From contig CAJFCV020000001.1 of assembly GCA_904066235.2 (NCBI GenBank), forward strand, positions 10,163,291 through 10,227,290: a DNA stretch of 64,000 nucleotides, in the 5' to 3' direction. A program made the position numbers and the translations under genes. The notes under the pieces were generated by a model. It made no database searches and was not told the origin of the DNA. It was given only the letters and a program-made list of their open reading frames with translations. The DNA comes from Bursaphelenchus xylophilus. Taxonomy: Eukaryota > Nematoda > Chromadorea > Rhabditida > Aphelenchoididae. Every line of letters starts with the position of its first letter. Within the stretch, counting starts at the first letter, position 1. Below, piece by piece: positions 42,201-55,153 of the stretch.

Positions 42201-45200
42201 CTCATGTCAGAAATAAGTCACGAATAAAACCACAGTAAAATAATAAAAAAAGTTAAATTCAACATACATGTAGCTCCCATAGCATTCTGTGCCTGGAGGG
42301 CAACCATTTTTGAAGACCCCGCAGGGAATAAATTCCCGATCAAGTTTGAACAAAATCCGTGGTGGTGCCATCGCCTCCAAACAAAGTAATAAACAGAAAA
42401 ATGAGCTCGTTTGCTTTCTGATCAACATTATTGCGCAAAGCTCCGCAAAAGTTTATATTTTTCTGTTGTTTTATTTCTGTTATAATTACGTCACTTGGAA
42501 AATCTAATAACTACCTTAAAAAAAACTTTAAATACTTTTATCACAAATTAAAAATCCTCCCTGAGTAGTTTGAATACATTTTTGGAAAGCTTTTTGATAT
42601 TTGCGCCCAGTGGGACTCGAACCCGGGATGTTTTGATTACTAAACTTGACCAAAATCCACTACACCACGAAAATCGGGGCACCACTTTTTAAACTTTTTT
42701 TTAATGTGTATAGGGCAGAATTTTACGCTGATTAACATATGTAAAAATCAGCTGCGGGTTTTCAGAAACAACTTTTTTATGGCCGATTTTGTGCGGCCGA
42801 ACCAACATTGCGGTATGTTACAGTAACCTGAGTGCCAAAATTTTGTATTCACTTTGACGAGCATGTGCTAAAACATAAGTATTCTCAATTTCAGCTATTT
42901 CCGATGCGTAGTTTTGGAGTAATAGTCGATTACTGTAAAAACATTAAATTGTAAATTACAGTAGGTTAATGGGAGAATTAGACAAAAATATTTCAGTCAT
43001 ATGTTTATTAGATGCCTACGGTCATTTTAAAACAAAAAACTCAAAATCGATTTTTTTCTATGTCCACGGCTAATTCAGTGACTCAGAAATCGTGTTTTAA
43101 AGCAATTCAATTTGAAGTTGATCCGAGGCTACCCATAAAAAAGGTCTCCCAGCTGGAAGTGGAGCTTTGATAAGGGAAAAGGCGGGAACTCCGTTCATTT
43201 CGACCTCCAAAAATAAGGTCGAAAGATGTTTTGATCTGATACGTAAGGTAAACAAGCGGAAGATGAGGCGTAAACGGAGCGATAATTAGGAAAAGTGGAT
43301 TGATTTAGGGATTATGGGATGTAAAATACGATGAAGTGAAAGGGGTCTCTATTAAGTCGCTGAATTTGTCGCGACACCCTCGCGATACTAAAAATAGCAA
43401 AAAGGAATTCTCTCAATAGGCCGATTGGATGATTAATTTGGGCCGAGAAGATTCTTGATTGCCATAACATTCATTTCCCCTGCCTCTTAATCACCGCTTT
43501 CCGTGCAAACGCCTGAGTAAGCACGGATCATTCACTCCGTATCTCCTGCTTTATGATTCCACTTATGAGGTGTCCTAGGGCCGGACCCAACCCCCTTGGC
43601 CCAGCCCTAGGACACTCCAGCTAATCCCGCCCTTTTGATGATAATATATAAGCCTGAAAATTCCCACAATAAATATATCGCAAAATCAACTGTTGTTGTT
43701 GTCAGTCAGCGTCGCCATCCCCAGCACCCCCGCGAAAAGGTAGGAGAATTGTAAGATTCTCAAAAGGAGTCGGCAAACCCAGCCGGCCGACTCCCAAATT
43801 GTCACCGAGCCTATTCCCGGCCTTGACAATTTTTGGTGACCCCGACGTGATCTAGGTCCGCCAAAGGTAGACCTAGATCGCGCCTCTGAAACCAACGGCA
43901 GCTCCCAAAAAGGGTAGCTAAGAAGTCAGCTCCCTAAAGGGAAGCTCAACTACCGCGGAGACCACGCGCAAGTCCCCAACGCAGGATCCCTGCTTCGAAG
44001 ATTGATCCCAACCTCTACCTGTATCCTTTTACTTGCTGAATCTTCTACCTGTGCTTATCTGATTTGTGCTAAAAGGCGATATCAACCCAACAAAGTCCCC
44101 CCGAACTATGGACTCCCCTTCCGGCAAAATCCGCCAAGCAATCGGCTTGGCAAAACGCCGCCTACAAGATGCCCTCCGATCCTACCTACAAATCCAAAAG
44201 GAAATAGACCTAAATCCCGCTGAAATCAATGACGAGCAACTCTATAACACCTTCGAAACTGCCCATGATGTTTTCCGAAGACTATCCCGAAATGTTCAAC
44301 GATTAGACGAGCTCCATAACCAATGGCAACGCATCATTGAAACCAACCCATCCGAACAGACCACCTTCGACAACTACATTACCGCTCATGGAGACTTCCG
44401 CTCCCTCGTCGAGGAAGGTCGCGCCGCCGTCGACCACCTCCGACTCCGCATCGGACTTCTGCGCGAAGCCACATCAAACCGACTCGAACTGACCGACCCT
44501 AATGACCTGTACGACAATGGCGAGGGAACACTGGACATCGTCCCCTCTAATGATGCCGTGTTCTCCACCCCAACCACGCCGACCCGTCCCAGCACGCCGG
44601 CTACCCCTGCGACTCAGGTAAACCCTCCCGCCGAACTAAGTCAGCCCTCTCCCGGCTGGATGGACCTCCTGTTCCTTCCAAACGTCTCAATCCCCCAATT
44701 CAACGGCAATCCCAGCCGATGGAATGAATTCTGGGATTTGTTCAACGCCATGGTAAACAACCGAAAGTTGGAGCCGTGCCTGAAGCTCTTCCAACTCCGA
44801 TCATGCCTCGAAGGTGAGGCAAAAGCAGCACTTTCCCACCTTGGAAATTCTAACGCCGACTACAACATTGCCGTCCAAACCCTCAAGGACCTCTACGGTG
44901 ACCCCCTCAGAGTCACCCACAGACTCCGCGCAGAAATCCTTCAATTCCGTATCCTTGACAAGGGATCCATCAACCTCTACCGAGGATGGTCCCGTCTACA
45001 CCAATTGTACTCCCAACTCCTGTCCATGGGTGACCCAGCCGACACCACCCTTCTAGCCCAAGTCATCGAAAGCAAGTTCCCGCGCTACGTACTCCAAAAA
45101 GTATACAAGGATGCCACCATCATCCCTAAAGGAAAACAAATGTTAGATGCCGTAGGAGATGTCCTCCGCAAAGAGGCAAATATCGATCGAATGATTTCCG

Positions 45201-48200
45201 ACAACCATGGAGACCAGAAACGCCTCCCAAATCGGCCAAATACACCCCGACGGCCCGATCAAGTGCTCTCTCATTATAACGCCGACCAAGACGAGAAAAA
45301 TCCCAATGGGCCCTCCTGCCACCTGTGCGAAGGCCGACATCTCACCTACAAGTGTTCCAAATATGGCGAACCCCAAGAACGACAACGACAAGCAAGTTTG
45401 AAGAAATTGTGCCGCAATTGTCTTCTACCTGGACATTTCGTCCCCGAATGCCCCTCCAAACATTCCTGTCGCCATTGCAACCAACGGCACCACTCCTCAA
45501 TGTGCTTCCGTAACAACCCGGCCGGGCCAAGCAGACCAGCTCAAAAAAGCAAACCAGCGCAGAAAGTAACCTTTGCTCCGAAACCCGCCAAAACCACCCC
45601 TTCGGCTAAAACTAGGCCGCCTTCCAATCCACGAAAGGAAAAGACTCATGTCGTTATTAACGAAGATGAATTGGACGACAATGAACAGTCAGAACAAGCC
45701 TTCCTGACAAATACCAAGCCAAAGCCCAAACTATCAACAACTCTACTCATGACCACCGAAGTGGAAGCAATCAACCCCGACGTCTCGAAGGTAAGCAGAC
45801 CTGCTGTTCTTTTCAGTGACTCCGGAAGCACTCGCAGCTTCATCACCGAAGAACTCGCGTCCAACTTAAAACTGAGACCCCTCTCCGACGAGATAACCAC
45901 AGTCAACGTCAACACATTTGGAGATCACAGCGAGACCTTCAACACCAAAACGTACAACTTAGTCATCCGCGATCCAGCGCACCCAAAGAAGACAACCAAA
46001 ATCTCCGTCCTCTCCATTCCCAATATGACCAGTTCGATGCTGGCTGCCCTCCCTACCGATTTCCATGAAACGCCACTGACCGTGAAGAAAGTCCGGCCCT
46101 CCATCCTTCTCGGAATGGACAATCTCGACATCTGTCGGAGCACCGGAGAGCCAGTCGACCTCCCCTCGGGCTTCAAGCTCTCACACTCCAAGATAGGGCG
46201 ATTCATCTATGGAGAAGGAAAGGCAAGTCCAGTGCCTCAAACCAATGCCCATACCCACCATTCTTACATGATGGAAATGGCGATCCCTCTGCCTACAACA
46301 GAAGGATCTATCACCGCCATTGCTGGACCTATGTGGTCAGGAAAAACAACTCTCCTCTTGGAAAAATTGAATGAGTTTCCCGAGCAATCCCGCATCCTGA
46401 GAATACGGCACGTGGCGGACATCAGATACACTGAAGGTAACCAAATTGTGACTCATGACGGCCAGACCCACGCCTGCATGAGAATCGCCGACCTCAACAG
46501 TACGATTGCCTTACTGAATGTCTACGACGTGTTGGCCATCGACGATGCCCATTTTTTCCCCGAATTGGCTGTAGTCTGCCAGAAGATTCGCGACCTCGGT
46601 AAGACTATCATCGTCACCGGACTCCTAAACGGGACTTATCTCGACAATCCTACGCCGAAGACAAACTACAACTTCGCTCCATTATGGGCCATTGCAGACC
46701 TCCGCCATACTCTGCTCGGAAATTGTGATATCTGTGGTGAACCGGCCTCTTACAGTAAAAGGATTGTCCCGAATCCCACCGATCCCACCGATATTTCTCA
46801 GTGGGTCGGCGGTAAGGACAAGTATGCTACTCTTTGCCCAACTTGTGATACAGCATACACCACCAAGCATTCCCCACAAGTATTCCACATATCCATTCCT
46901 ACAGAGGAGACCCCCAACGATTCTTCAACCGAGCCCGTGTCGATTTGCGTGAAACATACGGAACAAAAGCAGCTCAGTTCCTTACTCACAAAATTCTGGA
47001 CCCTCGAACACTTGGGAATCCACGACGACCCCAGTCGTAACGACGACGACCTCGCAATGGAAGCCTTCCTTAAAACCGTCACTCGTGATGAAGAAGGTCG
47101 ATACGTTTGTCGATGGCCGTGGAAAGGCACTCCTACCACTCTTCAAAGTAATTTCGGCCGTTGCCTCGGGCGACTTCGTTCTACTCTCCGCCGCCTCAGC
47201 GCTAATCCAACCCTCCTCCAACAATATAGTGAGATCTTTTCCGATCAACTCACCAAGGGCATTATCGAGGAAGTCCCTCTCAATCAACCGAGTCAGGGAC
47301 CTCTCCATTACATCCCCCACCAACCTGTCATCACCCCCGACAAAACCACGACCAAATTACGCGTGGTTTATGACGCTAGCTGTAAAACTCCCAACGGGAA
47401 GAGCCTGAATGACCACATGTTCCGCGGACCAGTGCTCCTCCCCGAACTGGTTGGCATGCTTCTTCGATTTCGTGTTACCAAGATCCCATTGCTTTCCGAT
47501 GTTGAGAAAGCTTTCCTCCAATTATCACTGGACGAACGTGACCGCGACTGTACCCGCTTCCTCTGGGTCCGTGACGTCACCCAACCCGCGGAAGGTGCCA
47601 ACCTGATGGTCTTCCGCTTCAATCGGGTTTGTTTTGGAGTAGTTTCATCACCCTTCCTCCTCGCCGCCTGCGTGGATTACCACCTCCAACACTACCCACA
47701 TCCCTTGGCCAAAGCAATGCGAAAAAATTCGTACGTCGATAACGTACTTATCGAATGTTCCGACGTCCAAGAGGCTACCGACGCTTATCACCTCTCACGA
47801 CAAATCTTCAGCGAAGCAAAAATGAACCTCCGAGAGTTTCAATCCAGCCATCCAACAGTCAAGGCCTTTTTGGAACAACAAGGAGAAAAGATCCCGGAAA
47901 TTGTCAAATTTCTTGGCCTACAGTGGAATACAAACACCGATATTCTCACTCTCGTGCCCTGGAAAACCCCAAACTCCGAACAGCTTGCCACAAAGAGAAC
48001 CATCCTCAAAAGGATCGCTAGCCTGTTCGACCCCCTAGGTTTTCATGCACCTTTGATCCTCCAAGCTAAACTCCTCCTCCAAAAGTTGTGGCAACAAGGT
48101 AAAGACTGGGACATCCCACTACAGGAAGATCTTCTTTTTGAATGGAATCAAATTCAATCATTACTCGAGACATCCACAATGCCCACACTACAACGCCACG

Positions 48201-51200
48201 TATGCCCATTTTCTTCTGACTCTGCTGAACTTCACGTGTTCTGTGACGCTTCTGACCGAGCTTATGCAGCAGTCGCTTATCTTCGCACTCAGTCAGGCGA
48301 CCTCATCGATGTGTCATTCCTAATCGGTAAAAGCCGTCTGGGACCCATAAAAGGCATGACCGTGCCCCGCCTGGAACTCCTCGGACTTCTCATTGGATCT
48401 AACCTTGCTCGCACAATTGCCACTGAGCTACCGTCAATTCGGCTCACCAACATCTTCCTCTGGACAGACTCACGGATCGTCCACACATGGCTTCTTTCTC
48501 GTCGAACACTTCCAATCTTCGTCAAGAATCGAGTCAACTCCATCTGGCAAAATGTCCCCAACGCCTCGATCCGATACGTTCCCACGGCAGAAAACCCAGC
48601 TGACTCGGCTACCAAACGTTGTCCACCATCACAACTTTGGCTCGAAGGTCCCGCTTGGCTCCGGCAGTCACCAAGCCAATGGCCAAATCAACCGGAACTC
48701 TACGAAGCTCCGGAGGATATCACTGCTGTCGCCGAAGTAACAACGGCACCCATACCCCTCATCGATGCTACTCGGTTCAGCCGCTGGACCATCCTCATCC
48801 ACACCCTTGTGTGTGTACTGCAGTACCTGGCGACCGTACTCTCGACCAGTAATACCGCTCAACGGAAATATCCCTGGCTTTCCGTGTACACCACGCCGTC
48901 CACCCCACACACAACCCAATTTCATACTGCAGAGAAATTGTTCTTTCGGTTAATGCAACAAGAACGACCCCCAACAAAAGCTCAACAGCACGAGCTCAAC
49001 CTGTATCAAGATTCTGAACAAGTTTTTCGCTGTCGTACTCGGCTCGCCCATGCTTCTCTCCCTACGACAGCACAAAACCCCATCTTCCTACCATCTCCCC
49101 ATTACGGGACCGCACTCTACATCCATCATATCCACCAACTATTGGGACATGCGTCCACTTCAACTACGCTATGTCACCTTCGTTACCGCGTATGGATTCC
49201 AAAAGCCAGACGCCTTGTCCAATCCAGCATTCGCCAATGTTCTTGCCGAACGTTGAAGCCGTTCGCGCTTCCACCCTTTCCCAATTACCCACACATGCGT
49301 GTACAACCAAACCCTCCATTCCACTACACAGGCCTGGATTACGGTGGTCCCATCTCCGTCAGCATCACCACTACCGACACCATAAAAACATACATCTGTT
49401 TGTTCACTTGTCTCACCTCACGGGCCGTACACCTCGAGCTCGTATTGGACCTTTCCACCCTCGCCTTCCTCCAGGCCCTTCGAAAATTCATCTCTCGACG
49501 GGGCACCCCAGCCGAAGTCTGGAGCGACAATGCCCCTCAATTCCGCCTCGCAACTCAAGCAATCACCCTTGCATGGGCTGAATCCGAAGACGTACAATCG
49601 TATTTGGCAACGCGCGGAATTAAATGGAGCTTCATCACCGAATCTGCCCCTTGGCAGGGCGGATCGTGGGAAAGATTGATGGGAGTAACGAAGACGGCAC
49701 TCAAGAGAGCCATCGGCAAGAAAAAGATCTCGCTGCCTGAAATGATGACGGTATTAACCGAGGTAGAAGCTATCGTCAATTCCCGTCCACTGACATTTGT
49801 ACCCTCAAAAATCGATGATCAATCATTTCACCCGATCCGACCCATCGATTGCATCCAACCAGGAGCCTTCATCGGAGTCCCTCTCCTCGACCCTTGGGAT
49901 CCCGAGGATGGCACCTTCGAGCCTAAGCCGTCATCGGTCACTAAGTTAATGGATCTTTGGAGAAAGCAACAAAGAATCATTAACCAATTCTGGAAAATTT
50001 GGAGCTCGGAATACCTCCTCACTCTGGCCGAGCGACATCAAACAACCCACAAACAGGACAGATCTGCGATCGATCGACTCCCAATGAAAGGAGAAGTCGT
50101 GCTTGTCCATGAGGAAGGACTCGGAAGAGGAAAGTGGCAAATGGCGAAGATCTTGGAGATCGTCACTCCAAACAAAATCCAAATTCAACTCGCTACACCG
50201 CCCCATTTGGTCCTCCACCGATCCCCGAAACACCTCTATCCACTCGAACTTCAACCCGAGATCCCAAACGCAACTGAAGGAATCCCAAGAACGTCCAACC
50301 AGCACGATAGCCCACCGCCACCCAGACGGAGTCCGAGAAAGAATTCTTCTTCCACCACACTAGTCGCCTATTTTCTGGGCATAGTTCTTATTAACACCGT
50401 TTCGGCTACGGAATCCCTACCCAACCCTTGTACAGCAGAGGACTGTGCCCCTTGGAGATGGGATTGCTGTACAGCTATCCAAAAAACAGGAATCTTCATC
50501 TGGATGGGAGTATTACTCGCTCTAATACCTTTCATTTGCATCCTACTAGCTATACACACTTGGATTTGGCGAACAGTCAGATGGATCTGGACTCGATGCC
50601 GTCCACAAAACCCTCGGCAACCACGATACCAGGCTCCACACCGAATTCGACGTCTTCTTCGGACGACAGGCACCATTTACCTCCTCTTCGGACTCTTTCC
50701 GTGGGTTAATGGTTGCTCAGAGGTAACCGCCTTAACCGCGAGCACTCACAACTGCCGTTTTGATGAAGATTCCAACGTCGAGACCTGTTCCCTCTCCCAA
50801 TCCATCCAACTCAGTTTGCGGCCCATCAACGAGACAAGCTGTCTTCGAATCACCACCCCACTCAACGGATCATATATGCTCCGCTTGACTACCCTCCAGC
50901 TAAAGTTTAAATGTAACTTTAAATACGGCTACCATACACGAGACTTTGCCACCACAGTTGAATCCGTCCATCGATGTGACATGGCATCGAATTCGTACTG
51001 TCAAGGATATCAATGTGAAAAGGTCTCCACGTCCGACGACCTCCCCGAATTTTCACTCCTAGCTCGTCGGGCCCCCGGCTACTCCCACTGTACCCGGGCC
51101 TGTGGGTGCGCCACTTGTGGCTGCTTCCTCTGCAGTCCGGGATGTAACTTCTGGCGCCTCTATGCCTTACCAAAAACCAACAACATTTACCTAATAGGAC

Positions 51201-54200
51201 GTTGCCCCACGTGGACTATAACCGCGTCAGTAATCCTAGAAGTGAGCGGCAAAACGTCCCTCATACAACTGGTGGCTGCCAAGCCCGTCCACGTCGGAAA
51301 CGAGATCTTCACTCTACAGGCCATATCCACTCCGCAGGTACCGATTCTGTATCAACCTATGGTTATAAAAGTGGGAACCAACGAGGCCATCACCACCGCA
51401 GCCTCTGACCCCCAACAACCTGCTCCGGGCAGCCTAGGGGTCTTCCAATGCCGCTCAGAAGACGATGCCAGAAGATTCCAGTGTACATTCCCCCATGAAA
51501 CTTGTTCATGCAGCCCCAGCGATTTCCACACCAAATGCACATGCAACTACCGCAACCCTATGGACCTATGGCACAGCCCGGAGGTAAAACTCCCGTTCAC
51601 TTCTGGTCCAATAAAGATCGCCTACCAAAACCACACCATCACGGCAGAAATCGCTCAACAAACCGCCATTCTGGTTCACATCGCCTTCCAAAACGCAACG
51701 ATATCTACGTTTCATTATCGTGCAAAGTGTGCACCTTCCGTGATACAACAATTGACCGGATGCAAGTCTTGTCATTCGGGCGCGCAAGCTATCATTTTCT
51801 GCCAATCCAAATTCCCAACGACTATCAATGTCGAGTGTGATGGAACAAATGTCCAATCATCTCCCTGCAACAACATTACGTTCCAACTCAACATCCACAC
51901 CGATGAAGCTGAATTTAACAAAAACTGTTCCTACTCCTGCTCCGATAAATCTGACGGAACTCTACACCTTTTCGGAAAACTTCACACCATGACGATTCCT
52001 CCTCCCCCGTCCAAGGAACTTGGACAGTGGTGGGCAAGAGCCGCCGATGAAGTTCCGATCGGAAACATTCTACGCGATATTACACAATTTCTGGAAAAAG
52101 TCGCTTGGTTTTTCCCTTCTTTAATCTTCCAATATCCCCTCCTTATGTTAATTGTTATGGCAACTGTCGTTATCATGCTTTATTTTCTTTTCCGCTACAA
52201 TTTCCCTTCCACCCCACCTGCGATCTTTCTCGGACCTCGCCCGCACCAACAACTCCCCGAAAGCCGTGGTCTCCTGCCCAAACGGGCTAAGCCCCACCAC
52301 CATTAACCAACCACTGGTCCCTTACCCTTCTTCCGATCCCTTTCGTCCTTAGCAAAAACCACAACTCATATTTTTCGACACAAAAAAAAAAAAAAACATG
52401 GATCGGGAGAAGTTTTTTCCACGCAACCCACATCTTTTGCCAAAATTTTACCACTGCTTTATCCTAACCATTGTCGTCAAAATTCGTATCCTAAACCCCA
52501 CATCCCCTCCGGTTCCTCAACACTTCCCTCCGCGGGAGCGTCACCACTAGCAGTTCAATTACAAATGAACTGTAATGCTGAAAAACAACACCCTCCCCCG
52601 AAAAAATCCGGAATCTCTGGCCGGTCGTCTCATACCAATCTTTCCAGACATGAGTGGAAAAAGAAACCAACAGAAGGAGCAAAACGACGAATGTCGCCAT
52701 CTTTTCGACCCCTCCGAAGAAGACCTGCTTACCATATATTCAACCATCCTAGCACTAGGTCTGATAAATCTCCAAAGCCGCACACAGTCCCGATGGGCCA
52801 GCATCCGGAGGCGGGCCGCTTTCCGTCTACATCCGGATAAATCCAACAACCCAACCGTCGCGACCGAACTCTTCAAAGTCTTCCAGTACAGCTGCAGATA
52901 CCTGGATGACCTCACCCAAGCTCAATACGAAGAATTTATCGAACGCCACCGCCACTGCCGCCCAATTCCGCTGCTAGACATAATCAACTTCGCCGACATC
53001 CCCGGCCCATCTACGTCCGCACCACAAGATCCTGCCATGTCGGACGCAATCCAGGAACTTCAACGCGAGGTAGAATCTCTCCGAGCGCAGAACGAAGCGC
53101 TCACCGCGGAGGCCTCCTCCTCCACCGCCGCCCGACACCAGGCGGAGGAGGAGGCCAAGCGCCTCCTGAGACAGAACGAACAACTCCGGAAACGCAACGA
53201 GGAATTGTCTGCCGAAGCCTCTTCCTCCGCCGCCGCCCGTAACCAGGCGGAGGAGGAGGCACAGGCCCTCACCGACACCCTGAACGAAGCTCGCCGAACC
53301 CGGCGCATCTTAGCAGAAGACAACGAGAGGCACTACCGGGCAATCCAAGCACTCCGGGAGGCCTCGCGAAACCAGCAGCTAGCCGCAGCGGAGGTGGGCG
53401 CTCAGCTCACCGAGGAGATCAATCAGCTCAGCGCCTTGCTACAAAACGAGGAAGAAAGGCATCGGCGAAGTTTGACCAGACTGGATGAAGCCGAAACCCT
53501 GGCCGCCTCCCTCCGCCACAATTTGGAGCAAGAAATGAGGAGGCCGCATAAAGCACGCCGTCAGCCGTGCCCCTACTGTAACTCGGCTGACCACAACCCT
53601 CTCGACTGCACGGTCGTTGTTGACCGCTCGGTCCGCCGAAGACTTATCGGCGACCGGTGCGTCAACTGTTTGGGAAGACACGATGTCATCAGATGCCCAA
53701 GCAGAAAAACGTGTCTACACTGCAAACAATGGCATCACACCTCGCTGTGCGCCCTGGGAACCCCCCACGACGTCCCTGGGCCCAGCACCTCCAGAGCACA
53801 CGAGGACCAGTGCCCCATATGCCTCACCGGGGACGACCGACCAGTGACCCGCACATACTGCGGTCATCTCTTCCACCAGATCTGCCTAGACGAGTGGATC
53901 ACCAGCCAGCTCAACCAACATCAGAACCCGACGTGCCCCAATTGCCGCGCCCCTCTACATATCGACTCCCGCCACCGCCAACCGGATACCAGCCCAGAGG
54001 AACCGGAGGAACCCACTTTCTAAAAAGATAAGATAACCTGTCTATAAAATTTATTGTAATTAGATAAGCTCACTATAAATTTATTGTAAAATTTTGTAAT
54101 CTCTGTACTCTGTTCCAAACTTTTGTAACCCAAAAATTCCCTCCTCTTCTTCCTCCCTCTCCCTCCCCCGGAGTGTCGCGACACCCTCGCGATACTAAAA

Positions 54201-55153
54201 ATAGCAAAAAGGAATTCTCTCAATAGGCCGATTGGATGATTAATTTGGGCCGAGAAGATTCTTGATTGCCATAACATTCATTTCCCCTGCCTCTTAATCA
54301 CCGCTTTCCGTGCAAACGCCTGAGTAAGCACGGATCATTCACTCCGTATCTCCTGCTTTATGATTCCACTTATGAGGTGTCCTAGGGCCGGACCCAACCC
54401 CCTTGGCCCAGCCCTAGGACACTCCAGCTAATCCCGCCCTTTTGATGATAATATATAAGCCTGAAAATTCCCACAATAAATATATCGCAAAATCAACTGT
54501 TGTTGTTGTCAGTCAGCGTCGCCATCCCCAGCACCCCCGCGAAAAGGTAGGAGAATTGTAAGATTCTCAAAAGGAGTCGGCAAACCCAGCCGGCCGACTC
54601 CCAAATTGTCACCGAGCCTATTCCCGGCCGTGACAGAATTTTTGAGAAAAGGCCAATTTTAACCTTATTTTAGGCGATTAAAATTTTGAAACGTAAATTT
54701 TTTAATGTTTGATGTAAAAATAGTCATGAATTTAATCTAAATTAGATCCTAGCGCTTTGTTGAGACGATTTAAAGGTCAAAGCTCGAGATCCGACATTTA
54801 GCTCATGCTAAAAATTTTGAAGAGTACGGTACTAATTAACTGGAAAATGAAGGGCCAAGAATACAATCAAGTCACGTGATAATGTGACAAACTCACATCA
54901 CATGCCTGGACTGTAATTAGGCGCTATTTACCAGATATTAGCATTAATTATCCTTGAATTTTTGTCTTATTTGTCTAGTGCAATATAAAATGATGTCAAA
55001 AATAAGGGAAAAAATGCCATGGATTGTTTTACAGAACGTATTTTACTCACCAACGGGGTCGAGACTCCCCACTGCTGGCAGCGATTCCATCGATGAATGG
55101 TCATAACTGTAAAACGAATCATTTTTTGTGGTGAGCAAGTTCTGGGCCGACAT
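24206..55153 (-). CDS. Giant coiled-coil protein, probable rootletin (CROCC/CHE-10 type), 27 exons
   Basis: The coding exons, 5' to 3', are: 55153-55051, 34197-33912, 33535-33416, 33256-33091, 32945-32868, 32780-32616, 32522-32357, 32293-32086, 32016-31652, 31479-31316, 31253-31130, 31064-30958, 30821-30600, 30491-30243, 29220-28817, 28719-28544, 28457-28153, 27913-27448, 27261-27238, 27184-26861, 26782-26619, 26581-26402, 26222-26124, 25936-25706, 25364-25197, 25109-24909 and 24778-24206. Every junction is GT/AG and in phase; the total is 5,838 nt, or 1,945 residues. The short N-terminus (MSAQNLLTTKNDSFYSYD) is followed by a basic segment with YYRRRIEAGVEEQ and PHGRLPIYYGRTYRGINED, then about 1,700 residues of heptad-rich Glu/Lys/Leu coiled coil, and a Ser/Thr/Arg tail. 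Size and architecture match rootletin, the ciliary rootlet filament protein of sensory neurons. Myosin-tail, ninein or LFI-1-type proteins are alternatives. Exon structure is well supported; the family name is inferred. Translation is open upstream of the ATG to an acceptor at 55,214, so a 5' exon or trans-splice site is possible. Confidence 0.8.
29492..29974. mobile_element. Nested 483-bp MITE with TAA duplication and a tRNA-like core
   Basis: The ends CAAGGAAAGTACTTTTATGG and its reverse complement pair over about 80 bp, including CTCCTACTTTTTGACGGGAC. TAA occurs on both sides (29,489-29,491 and 29,975-29,977). It is inserted inside the older relative at 29,283-30,214. There is no coding capacity; a minus-strand tRNA-like block lies at its centre. 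Confidence 0.82.
29718..29782 (-). tRNA. Degenerate tRNA-like module in the nested MITE
   Basis: The minus strand shows an A-box (TGGCGCAGTTGG) and, at the expected spacing, a B-box (GGTTCGAGTTC) with a T stem of about 5 bp including wobble pairs. The acceptor arms do not pair and no standard anticodon loop is formed. It is probably a tRNA-derived pseudogene or pol III promoter-like module. Confidence 0.5.
34198..34588. other. Intron DNA left of the palindromic element
   Basis: Original sequence of the large intron of the coiled-coil gene, ending in the TTAA (34,585-34,588) used as insertion target. No feature seen. Confidence 0.6.
34915..35205 (+). pseudogene. Histone H2B-derived pseudogene, left arm copy
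   Basis: The first exon reads MGHPNTGISSNAMNITNSFSK, matching the H2B block VHPDTGISSKAMSIMNSF. After an intron-like segment (34,990-35,034, GTATGT...TTTTAG) the next exon reads AEASRLVRYNNRPTFSSGEI, matching [20 protein letters not shown]. A 2-base deletion relative to the right arm (CCGTGATT against CCGTGTGATT) then destroys the LPGEL motif, although the shifted frame stays open to 35,310. The N-terminal tail of H2B is missing. It could still be transcribed, but it would not make a normal histone. Confidence 0.75.
35448..35751 (-). pseudogene. Histone H2B-derived pseudogene, right arm copy
   Basis: Same start as the left arm copy (GHPNTGISSNAMNITNSF). This arm keeps a downstream piece lost in the left arm, FRVILPGELIMNDGSTLPL, which corresponds to VRLLLPGELAKHAVSEGTK. 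It also has a different sequence at the end of the first exon: GTGATTTTTGAACGC, which could encode VIFER as in H2B VNDVFERIA, but out of frame. The two arms have therefore decayed differently. Confidence 0.72.
36083..36676 (+). repeat. Left terminal inverted repeat of the 7.0-kb transposon
   Basis: Pairs with 42,520-43,096. Shared landmarks are GAATTAGACAAAAATATTTC (reverse complement), TTCGGCCGCACAAAATCGGC and CTACTCAGGGAGGATTTTTA. A 13-base block inside the tRNA-like part (36,553-36,565) differs completely from the right TIR. Confidence 0.85.
36508..36587 (+). tRNA. tRNA-like module in the left TIR
   Basis: Acceptor-like arms GTGCCC and GGGCGC pair with a wobble. The A-box-like TGGTGTAGTGG and the B-box GGTTCGAGTCC are present, with a 4-of-5 bp T stem. 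The region between D and T arms folds poorly, so no anticodon can be assigned. Probably not a functional tRNA. Confidence 0.5.
37020..41710 (+). CDS. DDE-type transposase with C2H2 finger, 10 exons, 1,403 residues
   Basis: The exons 37020-37271, 37310-37507, 37545-37663, 37733-38085, 38126-38397, 38438-38955, 38994-39252, 39297-39959, 39999-40092 and 40227-41710 all join GT/AG and in phase (4,212 nt). Introns are mostly 38-70 bp. It matches a transposon-derived family common in cnidarians and other animals. Markers in order are a C-rich N-terminal region, GLPFGERKGKTSTGAEI, SRVPDHCILHSLS followed by HEH..CPRCE, LDFAQK (D about 825), SDNAGCYH (D about 907) and EFSEAQAGKSTADR (E about 939). Then come a C2H2 finger at about 1147-1170 (CPEQGC...H...H) and a C-terminal KMGWARKP...SMFSRLG module. 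The D, D, E residues fit an RNase H-fold transposase. Oddly, exons 1-2 begin with a signal-peptide-like stretch (MNFAKICFLLIFFTNVVLC) and a Cys-rich part, which may be a separate or fused gene. The start at 37020 follows an acceptor-like TTTTCAG. Confidence 0.82.
41951..42428 (-). CDS. Small type I membrane protein encoded by the 7.0-kb transposon, 2 exons
   Basis: The exons 42428-42268 and 42191-41951 join in phase through a 76-bp GT/AG intron and give 133 residues. The N-terminus (MLIRKQTSSFFCLLLCLEAM) looks like a signal peptide. A short ectodomain with four to five cysteines (IPCGVFKNGCPPGTECYG, FTCATE) follows. One clear membrane span (CWFYILISLILALFIVAVIAIC) is followed by a KKKEEEVEE cytoplasmic tail. 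I do not recognise the family. It lies convergent to the transposase gene and inside the TIRs, so it moves with the element. It could be a captured host gene or an element-specific accessory protein. Confidence 0.68.
42520..43096 (-). repeat. Right terminal inverted repeat of the 7.0-kb transposon
   Basis: Reverse complement of 36,083-36,676, with scattered substitutions (for example GTAGGCATCTAA against GTAGACATCCAG). The outer end is CGTGTT followed by TTAA. Confidence 0.85.
42603..42682 (-). tRNA. tRNA-like module in the right TIR
   Basis: Same A-box, B-box and acceptor-like arms as 36,508-36,587. It has a different 13-base block at 42,625-42,637, just before the T arm. Also not a plausible working tRNA. 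Confidence 0.5.
43101..43366. other. Intron DNA between the DNA transposon and the retroelement
   Basis: Original intron sequence. It ends in GAATT (43,362-43,366), the 5-bp target duplicated by the BEL/Pao insertion and found again at 54,636-54,640. Confidence 0.7.
43367..43828 (+). repeat. 5' LTR
   Basis: 462 bp, starting TGTCGCGACA and ending CCTTGACA. It differs from the 3' LTR only at 43,823 (T, against G at 54,630). It contains a TATA-like ATAATATATAAG (43,641-43,652), AATAAA at 43,669-43,674 and strong hairpins: GTGTCCTAGGG / CCCTAGGACAC (43,570-43,615) and GGAGTCGGC / GCCGACTCC (43,766-43,794). Confidence 0.97.
43641..43652 (+). promoter_or_regulatory. TATA-like box of the LTR promoter
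   Basis: ATAATATATAAG lies in the 5' LTR about 25 bases before the AATAAA region, so transcription would begin near 43,670-43,685. Inferred from position and sequence only. Confidence 0.45.
43834..43851 (+). promoter_or_regulatory. Primer-binding site complementary to tRNA-Trp
   Basis: TGGTGACCCCGACGTGAT is an 18-base match to the 3' end of animal tRNA-Trp (ATCACGTCGGGGTCACCA), the same primer used by avian sarcoma-leukosis viruses. It begins five bases after the LTR end, as expected for minus-strand priming. Confidence 0.9.
44108..52306 (+). CDS. BEL/Pao Gag-Pro-TK-RT-RH-IN-Env polyprotein, 2,732 residues
   Basis: The start is the ATG of MDSPSGKIRQAIGLAKRRL; the frame is open a little further upstream. 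Domains by residue: Gag with a DUF1759-like core (about 190-330, FNGNPSRWNEFWDLF) and three zinc-knuckle-like motifs (about 405-470, CHLCEGRHLTYKC, CRNCLLPGHFVPEC, CRHCNQRHHSSMC). Aspartic protease follows (about 568, FSDSGSTRSFI). A TK1-like domain occupies about 735-915. RT (about 1078-1215) has the active site YVDN near 1207. RNase H is at about 1376-1470 (FCDASDRAYAA, TDSRIV). Integrase has an HHCC finger (about 1672-1716) and a DDE core (GLDYGG about 1742, SDNAPQF about 1805, WERL about 1854), followed by a DUF5641-like end. The Env region (about 2081-2732) has several hydrophobic spans, many cysteines, the cluster CGCATCGCFLCSPGC typical of phlebovirus-Gc-like nematode envelopes, N-glycosylation sites and a C-terminal anchor. 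No stop or frameshift separates gag, pol and env, so products must come from proteolysis and signal cleavage. Confidence 0.95.
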   Translation: MDSPSGKIRQAIGLAKRRLQDALRSYLQIQKEIDLNPAEINDEQLYNTFETAHDVFRRLSRNVQRLDELHNQWQRIIETNPSEQTTFDNYITAHGDFRSLVEEGRAAVDHLRLRIGLLREATSNRLELTDPNDLYDNGEGTLDIVPSNDAVFSTPTTPTRPSTPATPATQVNPPAELSQPSPGWMDLLFLPNVSIPQFNGNPSRWNEFWDLFNAMVNNRKLEPCLKLFQLRSCLEGEAKAALSHLGNSNADYNIAVQTLKDLYGDPLRVTHRLRAEILQFRILDKGSINLYRGWSRLHQLYSQLLSMGDPADTTLLAQVIESKFPRYVLQKVYKDATIIPKGKQMLDAVGDVLRKEANIDRMISDNHGDQKRLPNRPNTPRRPDQVLSHYNADQDEKNPNGPSCHLCEGRHLTYKCSKYGEPQERQRQASLKKLCRNCLLPGHFVPECPSKHSCRHCNQRHHSSMCFRNNPAGPSRPAQKSKPAQKVTFAPKPAKTTPSAKTRPPSNPRKEKTHVVINEDELDDNEQSEQAFLTNTKPKPKLSTTLLMTTEVEAINPDVSKVSRPAVLFSDSGSTRSFITEELASNLKLRPLSDEITTVNVNTFGDHSETFNTKTYNLVIRDPAHPKKTTKISVLSIPNMTSSMLAALPTDFHETPLTVKKVRPSILLGMDNLDICRSTGEPVDLPSGFKLSHSKIGRFIYGEGKASPVPQTNAHTHHSYMMEMAIPLPTTEGSITAIAGPMWSGKTTLLLEKLNEFPEQSRILRIRHVADIRYTEGNQIVTHDGQTHACMRIADLNSTIALLNVYDVLAIDDAHFFPELAVVCQKIRDLGKTIIVTGLLNGTYLDNPTPKTNYNFAPLWAIADLRHTLLGNCDICGEPASYSKRIVPNPTDPTDISQWVGGKDKYATLCPTCDTAYTTKHSPQVFHISIPTEETPNDSSTEPVSICVKHTEQKQLSSLLTKFWTLEHLGIHDDPSRNDDDLAMEAFLKTVTRDEEGRYVCRWPWKGTPTTLQSNFGRCLGRLRSTLRRLSANPTLLQQYSEIFSDQLTKGIIEEVPLNQPSQGPLHYIPHQPVITPDKTTTKLRVVYDASCKTPNGKSLNDHMFRGPVLLPELVGMLLRFRVTKIPLLSDVEKAFLQLSLDERDRDCTRFLWVRDVTQPAEGANLMVFRFNRVCFGVVSSPFLLAACVDYHLQHYPHPLAKAMRKNSYVDNVLIECSDVQEATDAYHLSRQIFSEAKMNLREFQSSHPTVKAFLEQQGEKIPEIVKFLGLQWNTNTDILTLVPWKTPNSEQLATKRTILKRIASLFDPLGFHAPLILQAKLLLQKLWQQGKDWDIPLQEDLLFEWNQIQSLLETSTMPTLQRHVCPFSSDSAELHVFCDASDRAYAAVAYLRTQSGDLIDVSFLIGKSRLGPIKGMTVPRLELLGLLIGSNLARTIATELPSIRLTNIFLWTDSRIVHTWLLSRRTLPIFVKNRVNSIWQNVPNASIRYVPTAENPADSATKRCPPSQLWLEGPAWLRQSPSQWPNQPELYEAPEDITAVAEVTTAPIPLIDATRFSRWTILIHTLVCVLQYLATVLSTSNTAQRKYPWLSVYTTPSTPHTTQFHTAEKLFFRLMQQERPPTKAQQHELNLYQDSEQVFRCRTRLAHASLPTTAQNPIFLPSPHYGTALYIHHIHQLLGHASTSTTLCHLRYRVWIPKARRLVQSSIRQCSCRTLKPFALPPFPNYPHMRVQPNPPFHYTGLDYGGPISVSITTTDTIKTYICLFTCLTSRAVHLELVLDLSTLAFLQALRKFISRRGTPAEVWSDNAPQFRLATQAITLAWAESEDVQSYLATRGIKWSFITESAPWQGGSWERLMGVTKTALKRAIGKKKISLPEMMTVLTEVEAIVNSRPLTFVPSKIDDQSFHPIRPIDCIQPGAFIGVPLLDPWDPEDGTFEPKPSSVTKLMDLWRKQQRIINQFWKIWSSEYLLTLAERHQTTHKQDRSAIDRLPMKGEVVLVHEEGLGRGKWQMAKILEIVTPNKIQIQLATPPHLVLHRSPKHLYPLELQPEIPNATEGIPRTSNQHDSPPPPRRSPRKNSSSTTLVAYFLGIVLINTVSATESLPNPCTAEDCAPWRWDCCTAIQKTGIFIWMGVLLALIPFICILLAIHTWIWRTVRWIWTRCRPQNPRQPRYQAPHRIRRLLRTTGTIYLLFGLFPWVNGCSEVTALTASTHNCRFDEDSNVETCSLSQSIQLSLRPINETSCLRITTPLNGSYMLRLTTLQLKFKCNFKYGYHTRDFATTVESVHRCDMASNSYCQGYQCEKVSTSDDLPEFSLLARRAPGYSHCTRACGCATCGCFLCSPGCNFWRLYALPKTNNIYLIGRCPTWTITASVILEVSGKTSLIQLVAAKPVHVGNEIFTLQAISTPQVPILYQPMVIKVGTNEAITTAASDPQQPAPGSLGVFQCRSEDDARRFQCTFPHETCSCSPSDFHTKCTCNYRNPMDLWHSPEVKLPFTSGPIKIAYQNHTITAEIAQQTAILVHIAFQNATISTFHYRAKCAPSVIQQLTGCKSCHSGAQAIIFCQSKFPTTINVECDGTNVQSSPCNNITFQLNIHTDEAEFNKNCSYSCSDKSDGTLHLFGKLHTMTIPPPPSKELGQWWARAADEVPIGNILRDITQFLEKVAWFFPSLIFQYPLLMLIVMATVVIMLYFLFRYNFPSTPPAIFLGPRPHQQLPESRGLLPKRAKPHHH
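46312..46860 (+). other. Type II (TK1-like) thymidine kinase domain embedded between protease and RT
   Basis: Reads ITAIAGPMWSGKTTLLLEKL, the Walker A region of TK1 enzymes (GPMFSGKST). The Mg-binding/catalytic segment is LAIDDAHFFPEL (TK1: IDEGQFFPD), followed by VTGLLNGTYL (the GLDGTF lasso start). A four-cysteine zinc site is C-x2-C (NCDICGEPASYSKR) and C-x2-C (LCPTCD), with GGKDKY matching the TK1 GGADKY. Length is about 180 residues, close to a full TK1 core. The usual catalytic Glu of DEGQ is Asp here, so activity is uncertain. The neighbours in the same frame are the protease and RT. Confidence 0.9.
52575..54023 (+). CDS. Accessory ORF: J-domain-like, coiled coil, Gag-like zinc knuckles and RING finger
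   Basis: 482 residues from the ATG at 52,575; an internal Met (MSGKRNQQKEQ) at 52,650 is an alternative start. Residues about 45-120 contain RRRAAFRLHPDKSNNPTVAT, ELFKVFQYSCRYLDD and AQYEEF, which fits the HPD loop and helices III-IV of a J domain (Hsp70 co-chaperone). Next is about 160 residues of charged coiled coil with an internal duplication (AEASSSTAARHQAEEEA / AEASSSAAARNQAEEEA). Then come knuckles CPYCNSADHNPLDC and CVNCLGRHDVIRC...CLHCKQWHHTSLC, closely resembling those of the element's Gag. Last is a RING-H2 type finger, CPIC...YCGHLFHQIC...CPNC. The role is unknown. Chaperone recruitment plus ubiquitin ligation, targeted through Gag- or RNA-binding knuckles, is a reasonable hypothesis. 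It would need its own spliced or internal transcript. Confidence 0.88.
   Translation: MLKNNTLPRKNPESLAGRLIPIFPDMSGKRNQQKEQNDECRHLFDPSEEDLLTIYSTILALGLINLQSRTQSRWASIRRRAAFRLHPDKSNNPTVATELFKVFQYSCRYLDDLTQAQYEEFIERHRHCRPIPLLDIINFADIPGPSTSAPQDPAMSDAIQELQREVESLRAQNEALTAEASSSTAARHQAEEEAKRLLRQNEQLRKRNEELSAEASSSAAARNQAEEEAQALTDTLNEARRTRRILAEDNERHYRAIQALREASRNQQLAAAEVGAQLTEEINQLSALLQNEEERHRRSLTRLDEAETLAASLRHNLEQEMRRPHKARRQPCPYCNSADHNPLDCTVVVDRSVRRRLIGDRCVNCLGRHDVIRCPSRKTCLHCKQWHHTSLCALGTPHDVPGPSTSRAHEDQCPICLTGDDRPVTRTYCGHLFHQICLDEWITSQLNQHQNPTCPNCRAPLHIDSRHRQPDTSPEEPEEPTF
54138..54169 (+). other. Polypyrimidine run where a polypurine tract is expected
   Basis: TCCCTCCTCTTCTTCCTCCC and the following CTCTCCCTCCCCC form a 32-base pyrimidine run, followed only by GGAG before the 3' LTR at 54,174. 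LTR retroelements normally have a purine-rich plus strand here to prime second-strand synthesis. Confidence 0.7.
54174..54635 (+). repeat. 3' LTR
   Basis: 462 bp, identical to 43,367-43,828 except at 54,630. It is followed directly by GAATT, the second copy of the target site. Confidence 0.97.
54641..55050. other. Intron remainder before the first coding exon of the coiled-coil gene
   Basis: AT-rich intron sequence. On the minus strand the donor GTGAGT at 55,050-55,045 starts the large intron. No other feature seen. Confidence 0.6.

Follow-up and report, generated by a model that had tools for sequence, protein, structure and literature searches.

We have found that an envelope-bearing retroelement in the nematode Bursaphelenchus xylophilus carries a thymidine kinase (TK) domain of the TK1 type within its polyprotein. 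The element occupies positions 43367-54635 of the 64,000-nucleotide stretch of DNA analysed here (the window). Our best reading, drawn from the sequence, is that the domain is a captured nucleoside-kinase module that would serve reverse transcription, either as a catalyst or merely as a nucleotide-binding unit. As a catalytic residue is altered, the module may supply DNA building blocks to reverse transcription or only bind them.

The element is bounded by two LTRs of 462 bp (43367..43828 and 54174..54635; all features given here for the window are on the plus strand), which differ from one another at 1 of 462 positions and are directly flanked by the 5-bp target duplication GAATT, upstream of the 5' LTR and downstream of the 3' LTR. 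The primer binding site (43834..43851) is an 18-nt match, complementary to the 3' end of the host tRNA-Trp(CCA) including what we take to be its CCA tail; it has eight matches in the genome, one of which was confirmed as a tRNA-Trp gene. A single open frame of 2,747 codons from stop to stop (44063..52306), with the first gag Met at 44108, encodes gag, protease (PR), TK, reverse transcriptase (RT), RNase H, integrase and env, in that order. Its profile matches are to DUF1759 in gag (44699..45100; E 5.2e-19), the aspartic protease profile DUF1758 (45773..46198; E 2e-4, and at 21.5 bits slightly below the curated cut-off of 22), RVT_1 in the RT (47489..47833; E 1.1e-5, under the profile cut-off, with RT relatives in the genome), the Pao 'Peptidase_A17' region on the RNase H side (47990..48397; E 2.1e-42), the integrase (49118..50170; H2C2 and DUF5641 above the cut-off, rve under it) and the Phlebovirus_G2 fusion domain of the envelope (50714..51679; E 2.2e-72). 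By these sequence features the element is a BEL/Pao-type LTR retroelement with an envelope: the BEL/Pao profile set stands in one frame, with DUF1759, Peptidase_A17 and DUF5641 exceeding their cut-offs and DUF1758 half a bit short, and LTRs of the TG...CA form with a 5-bp target duplication are found in all four copies described below.

A second ORF of 484 aa (52569..54023), also present in 4/4 copies, joins an HPDK/DnaJ-like stretch (a weak match, E 0.027) to gag-type zinc knuckles and a RING-H2 motif, and pieces of it occur in decayed relatives at C3:482729, C2:10787651, C4:3316625 and C1:5026488. Just 5' of the 3' LTR, at 54138-54173, the plus strand is pyrimidine-rich, whereas a polypurine tract would be expected there. 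In base composition, 2-kb stretches of the element (44001-54000) have 50-55% G+C and a GC skew of -0.22 to -0.29, against 32-44% G+C in the remaining window.

The original prediction, made from the sequence alone, placed a TK1-type domain between protease and RT in the same frame, and this is borne out. The domain sits between the end of the DUF1758 match (about 46198) and the start of the RT side (about 46990). Searched against PF00265, as had been proposed, the stretch 46262-46990 scores 92.6 bits (cut-off 20.6; E 3.5e-26) over profile positions 1-175 of 176, and the same stretch matches solved TK1 structures with E values down to 4.5e-20. All the motifs first quoted lie in frame within 44063-52306; the domain itself is where it was expected, with limits of 46304-46846 by PF00265 in place of the 46312..46860 given at first. 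Besides matching the profile over its full length with a score beyond the curated threshold, the domain has the P-loop GPMWSGKTT (46325..46351, by translation and alignment), the Mg Asp, the four zinc-ligand Cys (TK residues 155, 158, 192 and 195) and the GG..Y motif as GGKDKY (both within 46724..46846, by alignment). The NCBIfam TK model also matches it, at 94.4 bits (under the equivalog cut-off of 183), as does the PHROG TK family. Structure prediction, a further check suggested at the outset, agrees: the AlphaFold model has a mean pLDDT of 85 and a pTM of 0.78, being weakest at the lasso (129-133) and lower at the ends too. The fold assignment combines the sequence match with this model, whose alignment contained TKs.

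At about 30% identity, alignment with homologues shows that the domain keeps the P-loop, Asp53, Arg55, Thr64-His65-Asp66, Asp94, Phe98-Phe99 and Arg167, as well as Cys155/158/192/195, Gly183-Gly184 and Tyr188, so that most of the residues for ATP, Mg, thymidine and zinc are conserved. The earlier description of the kinase as 'complete-looking' is too strong, as the catalytic Glu95 is replaced by Asp in three of the four copies (codon 46544..46546 in the window) and by Gly in the C4 copy, which carries D95G together with G59D. In human TK1, Glu98 is the proton acceptor, according to the available part of PMC8757434. Our homologue search, run with the element and host TK1 together, gave 345 matches among 8000 scored candidates, 120 of them listed, and in the aligned homologous domains drawn from those 120 the catalytic position is Glu in 117/117 (counting the best half only for tandem proteins), while Gln97, which is His in the element, is Gln in 115/117. 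Furthermore, the P-loop Phe25, present in 68/70 hand-chosen homologues, is Trp, lasso Phe131 is Thr, Arg193 is Pro, and there is one extra residue before LNG. In an alignment of the element with 70 hand-picked homologues of the 120 listed, poxvirus, trichomonad tandem and many near-duplicate or unnamed rows being left out, no row retains a smaller share of the near-invariant sites than the element domain, at 30/44; the next lowest is 34/42 and the median 98%. DDAH likewise stands at the catalytic-Glu motif in the degenerate second half of P0009, a trichomonad-type tandem TK; by eye, that half is without the D-RY, THD and Cys motifs.

Four copies of the TK domain, 98-100% identical, are present in the 78-Mb assembly from which the window comes. 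The window copy (C1 10209552) and the C4 copy (C4 11325742; duplication GGGCT) have frames of 2,747 codons, copy C1b (C1 362545; duplication TTTTG) one of 2,686 codons with a one-base deletion in env, and copy C5 (C5 10635777; duplication AAGAC) one of 2,331 codons with roughly 1.8 kb inserted into env. Each of the four has LTRs of 462 bp, and the LTR pairs of C1b, C5 and C4 show 0/462 differences. No stop or indel was found within TK in any of the four copies. The copies arose by separate and recent insertions, each of which brought the TK domain with it; the C4 insertion is recent too, because its LTRs are identical. An assembly artefact at the borders of the domain, which the original prediction had allowed for, is ruled out, since the four copies stand at four different sites, have separate target duplications and show 0-1 differences in 462 positions between their paired LTRs.

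Of the changes that separate the three distinct copy sequences in the TK core, 15 are silent and 4 are replacements, giving a dN/dS of about 0.10 (p 3.2e-6) with a neutral replacement share of 0.73 and an assumed transition weight of 2; the changes are few. By the same test, which did not cover 45119-45250, the later integrase or env, the silent to replacement counts were 12:0 for RT (dN/dS 0.00), 16:5 for RNase H (0.12), 7:4 for the first integrase part (0.22), 5:5 for the protease (0.37, p 0.10), 13:2 for the TK-RT linker, 16:4 for the first gag part and 5:5 for the C-terminal gag (p 0.10). In env, the window and C4 copies differ by 27 silent and 17 replacement changes. The TK protein sequence is under purifying selection, with a dN/dS like that of RNase H.

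Elsewhere in the genome, a PF00265 scan of the assembly (E 10), which scored candidate stretches only, returned nine matches, of which four are the copies and the other five are parts of a single host gene. This host TK1 gene, on the minus strand at C4 5081033-5079178, is split into six exons and its motifs are intact; between its product and the element domain, identity is 29% across 184 residues. An RT search gave 28 matches, 24 of them outside the four copies (some fragments; best identity 39%); none of these 24 has a PF00265 match nearby, and a TK-type domain between protease and RT is absent from the 16 of the 24 that were inspected, some of which are near-copies of each other. From the protease-end motif to FWTLE, the element has a spacer of 266 residues, against about 35, by eye, in the nearest relative (L019).

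A decayed relic, located at C2 9014-9018 kb, shares the primer site of the element; it also has an ATG and a gag (56% over 124 aa, with two stops), and in the same frame as this gag reads TPEGSIEAITGPMGSGKTTLLLRKLDDL, a TK P-loop stretch with Gly in place of Trp25. It has no protease between gag and TK, and TK is unreadable beyond the P-loop helix. Aligned with the element over 31 TK codons, the relic differs at 24, with 13 of the differences silent and 11 not; for codons 14-36 the figures are 12 silent and 4 not. As gag and the TK P-loop share a frame in this relic, a second, older lineage bore at least part of the TK domain. The expected TK sites of two relics bearing the second ORF (L068 and L069) gave only a chance-level 11-residue match (E 0.86), and the relic at C5:2922300-2924900 has gag pieces and no TK.

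The origin of the domain was sought, as first proposed, by phylogeny against nematode and viral TKs. We built one tree of 118 rows (the element and 117 of the 120 listed homologues, the remainder having domain pieces under 150 aa) and one of 50 rows (the element, named homologues and six unnamed ones). The element branch measures 4.98 and 4.7 changes per site, respectively, against medians of 0.3 and 0.23, and has no supported neighbour in either tree. By path, the rows closest to the element, all very distant, are plant TKs in one of the trees; in the other they are a mixture that includes canarypox. Holding the element with the nematode TK1 group in the 50-row tree lowers lnL by 6.7 (p-AU 0.035), on a very long branch, and with a branch of that length nematode, plant, poxvirus and protist TKs are not separable as sources. 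Identity to the 120 homologues listed (of 345) is 25-38%, and the element domain, unlike host TK1, is intron-less. In the 50-row tree, which had few bacterial rows, the nematode TK1 group (98/91) also includes P0043, a TK filed under the bacterial endosymbiont Candidatus Cardinium hertigii, so gene transfer or a mis-filed sequence is possible. A Meloidogyne graminicola TK is listed as a putative transfer in the available part of PMC7593179.

The same insert, which the original prediction suggested seeking in other nematode BEL elements, is thus present in the four copies and partially in the C2 relic; a second species with a TK-bearing element was not found among the listed matches, in a search weakened by a word filter and length limits. 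A public B. xylophilus protein of this family, P0001 (2,671 aa), bears the UniRef name 'Thymidine kinase, cytosolic'. Protein searches gave 0/293 candidates at E 1e-3 for the TK piece alone, and for the gag-to-RNase-H piece one match in the TK region among 780 candidates, the B. xylophilus entry itself. A scan of viral contigs yielded four stretches that fit a pattern, none of them a relative, and five phage records have TKs at 28-32% identity.

How might such a domain be used? On the main reading, to which we give a probability of roughly 0.45, the envelope-bearing BEL/Pao element would make dTMP, and hence dTTP, beside its RT, and the domain would be the first known nucleoside kinase of a retroelement. 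An element of this type would have acquired an intron-less TK1-type domain in the protease-RT spacer; the kinase would be made within the polyprotein, probably freed by the element's protease, and may stay near RT, presumably by packaging. Its P-loop and thymidine site would then phosphorylate thymidine to dTMP, with Asp serving in place of Glu, and the dTMP could increase the dTTP available to reverse transcription at times of low host supply, perhaps to advantage in non-dividing cells. Against a working kinase stand the replaced catalytic Glu, with only 30/44 near-invariant sites kept, the Gly for Trp25 in the P-loop of the C2 relic, whose remaining TK is unrecognisable, and the DDAH of the degenerate half of P0009. 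Host TK1 is also intact, so the host can make dTMP, and among the listed matches no other species showed such an element.

It is possible, though rather unlikely, that the domain is a pseudokinase, which would not phosphorylate at all but would bind dTTP, thymidine or ATP/Mg as a nucleotide-binding or dTTP-sensing module beside RT, or would aid assembly through TK1-like tetramerisation. The catalytic Glu has been lost, yet the P-loop is retained, as are the Mg Asp, the stacking Tyr and the zinc Cys, and the protein sequence is under selection; moreover, TK1 enzymes bind their feedback inhibitor dTTP in the thymidine site (available part of PMC4433323). In BIV, a dUTPase-related gene encodes an inactive protein and its mutants give no progeny, which suggests that a captured domain can be required without activity (available part of PMC4261571). 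However, Asp could in principle accept a proton, and it is Asp that is found in 3/4 copies. That the captured fold now merely spaces protease and RT appears improbable: it does occupy the spacer, at 266 residues, but ligand and metal residues need not be kept for such a role, yet most are, and the 16 inspected relatives manage without so large a spacer. The original prediction also allowed for a relic, and a non-functional relic or hitch-hiking host gene fragment would fit the very long branch and the D95G and G59D changes of the C4 copy; it is nevertheless very improbable, as purifying selection on TK (p 3e-6) argues against it and the domain is without stop or frameshift in 4/4 copies. That the domain is a kinase acting on some other nucleoside or nucleotide would be consistent with the altered thymidine pocket, where the lasso Phe (Phe133 in the human enzyme) is Thr and Trp takes the place of human Val174, but this is the least credible of these readings, since the element still has the counterparts of Asp58, Arg165, Tyr181 and Phe101 of human TK1.

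Beyond the original prediction, this analysis adds the replacement of the catalytic Glu by Asp, the four copies, the separate host TK1 and the second ORF with its RING and zinc-knuckle motifs. Nematode BEL elements of the Cer and Tas groups combine a BEL pol with a captured viral envelope, which is of phlebovirus type in Cer; we know of no TK in them. Among the matches listed in the open-licence literature, we found no retroelement with a TK or other nucleoside kinase, which fits the original claim that none had been described, and a description elsewhere is possible. An account of retrotransposon accessory domains gives a chromodomain and a DnaQ-like exonuclease for LTR elements, and the word 'kinase' is absent from its available part (PMC6338049); neither 'kinase' nor 'thymidine' occurs in the main text of a survey of transposable elements in plant nematodes (PMC11118728). 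Gene capture in the same nematode is exemplified by eBxnv-1, a Bel/Pao element with a nodavirus RdRp, but it is degenerate, the gene is that of an RNA virus and the conserved LTR part is 132 nt; 'kinase' is absent from the main text of PMC5177903 as available.

Cellular and poxvirus TKs of the TK1 type (type II) share with the element domain the PF00265 profile, the P-loop, the zinc site and most thymidine contacts; the element domain differs in its place inside a retroelement polyprotein and in having Asp for the catalytic-base Glu. Both retroviruses and retroelements draw their dNTPs from the host, and the supply of dNTPs is a means by which hosts restrict them. A selected TK-type module in a retroelement would thus show a direct route by which a reverse transcriber could gain thymidylate, and it offers a testable system in which a single domain of some 20 kDa, present in recent copies, can be set against an intact TK1 of the host. 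The nearest precedent is found in the bdelloid rotifer elements Juno, Vesta and TelKA, which are Ty3/Gypsy-like. They carry a dUTPase between PR and RT, and so resemble the present element in having a domain of thymidylate metabolism at the same polyprotein position in invertebrate LTR elements, but the enzyme is not a kinase, a word absent from the available main text (PMC5408684). Similarly, the retroviral dUTPase is a captured nucleotide-metabolism domain that serves replication (available part of PMC4261571), though with another fold and another reaction. If the main reading is true, the TK of this element would be an analogue of that dUTPase, adding dTTP instead of removing dUTP.
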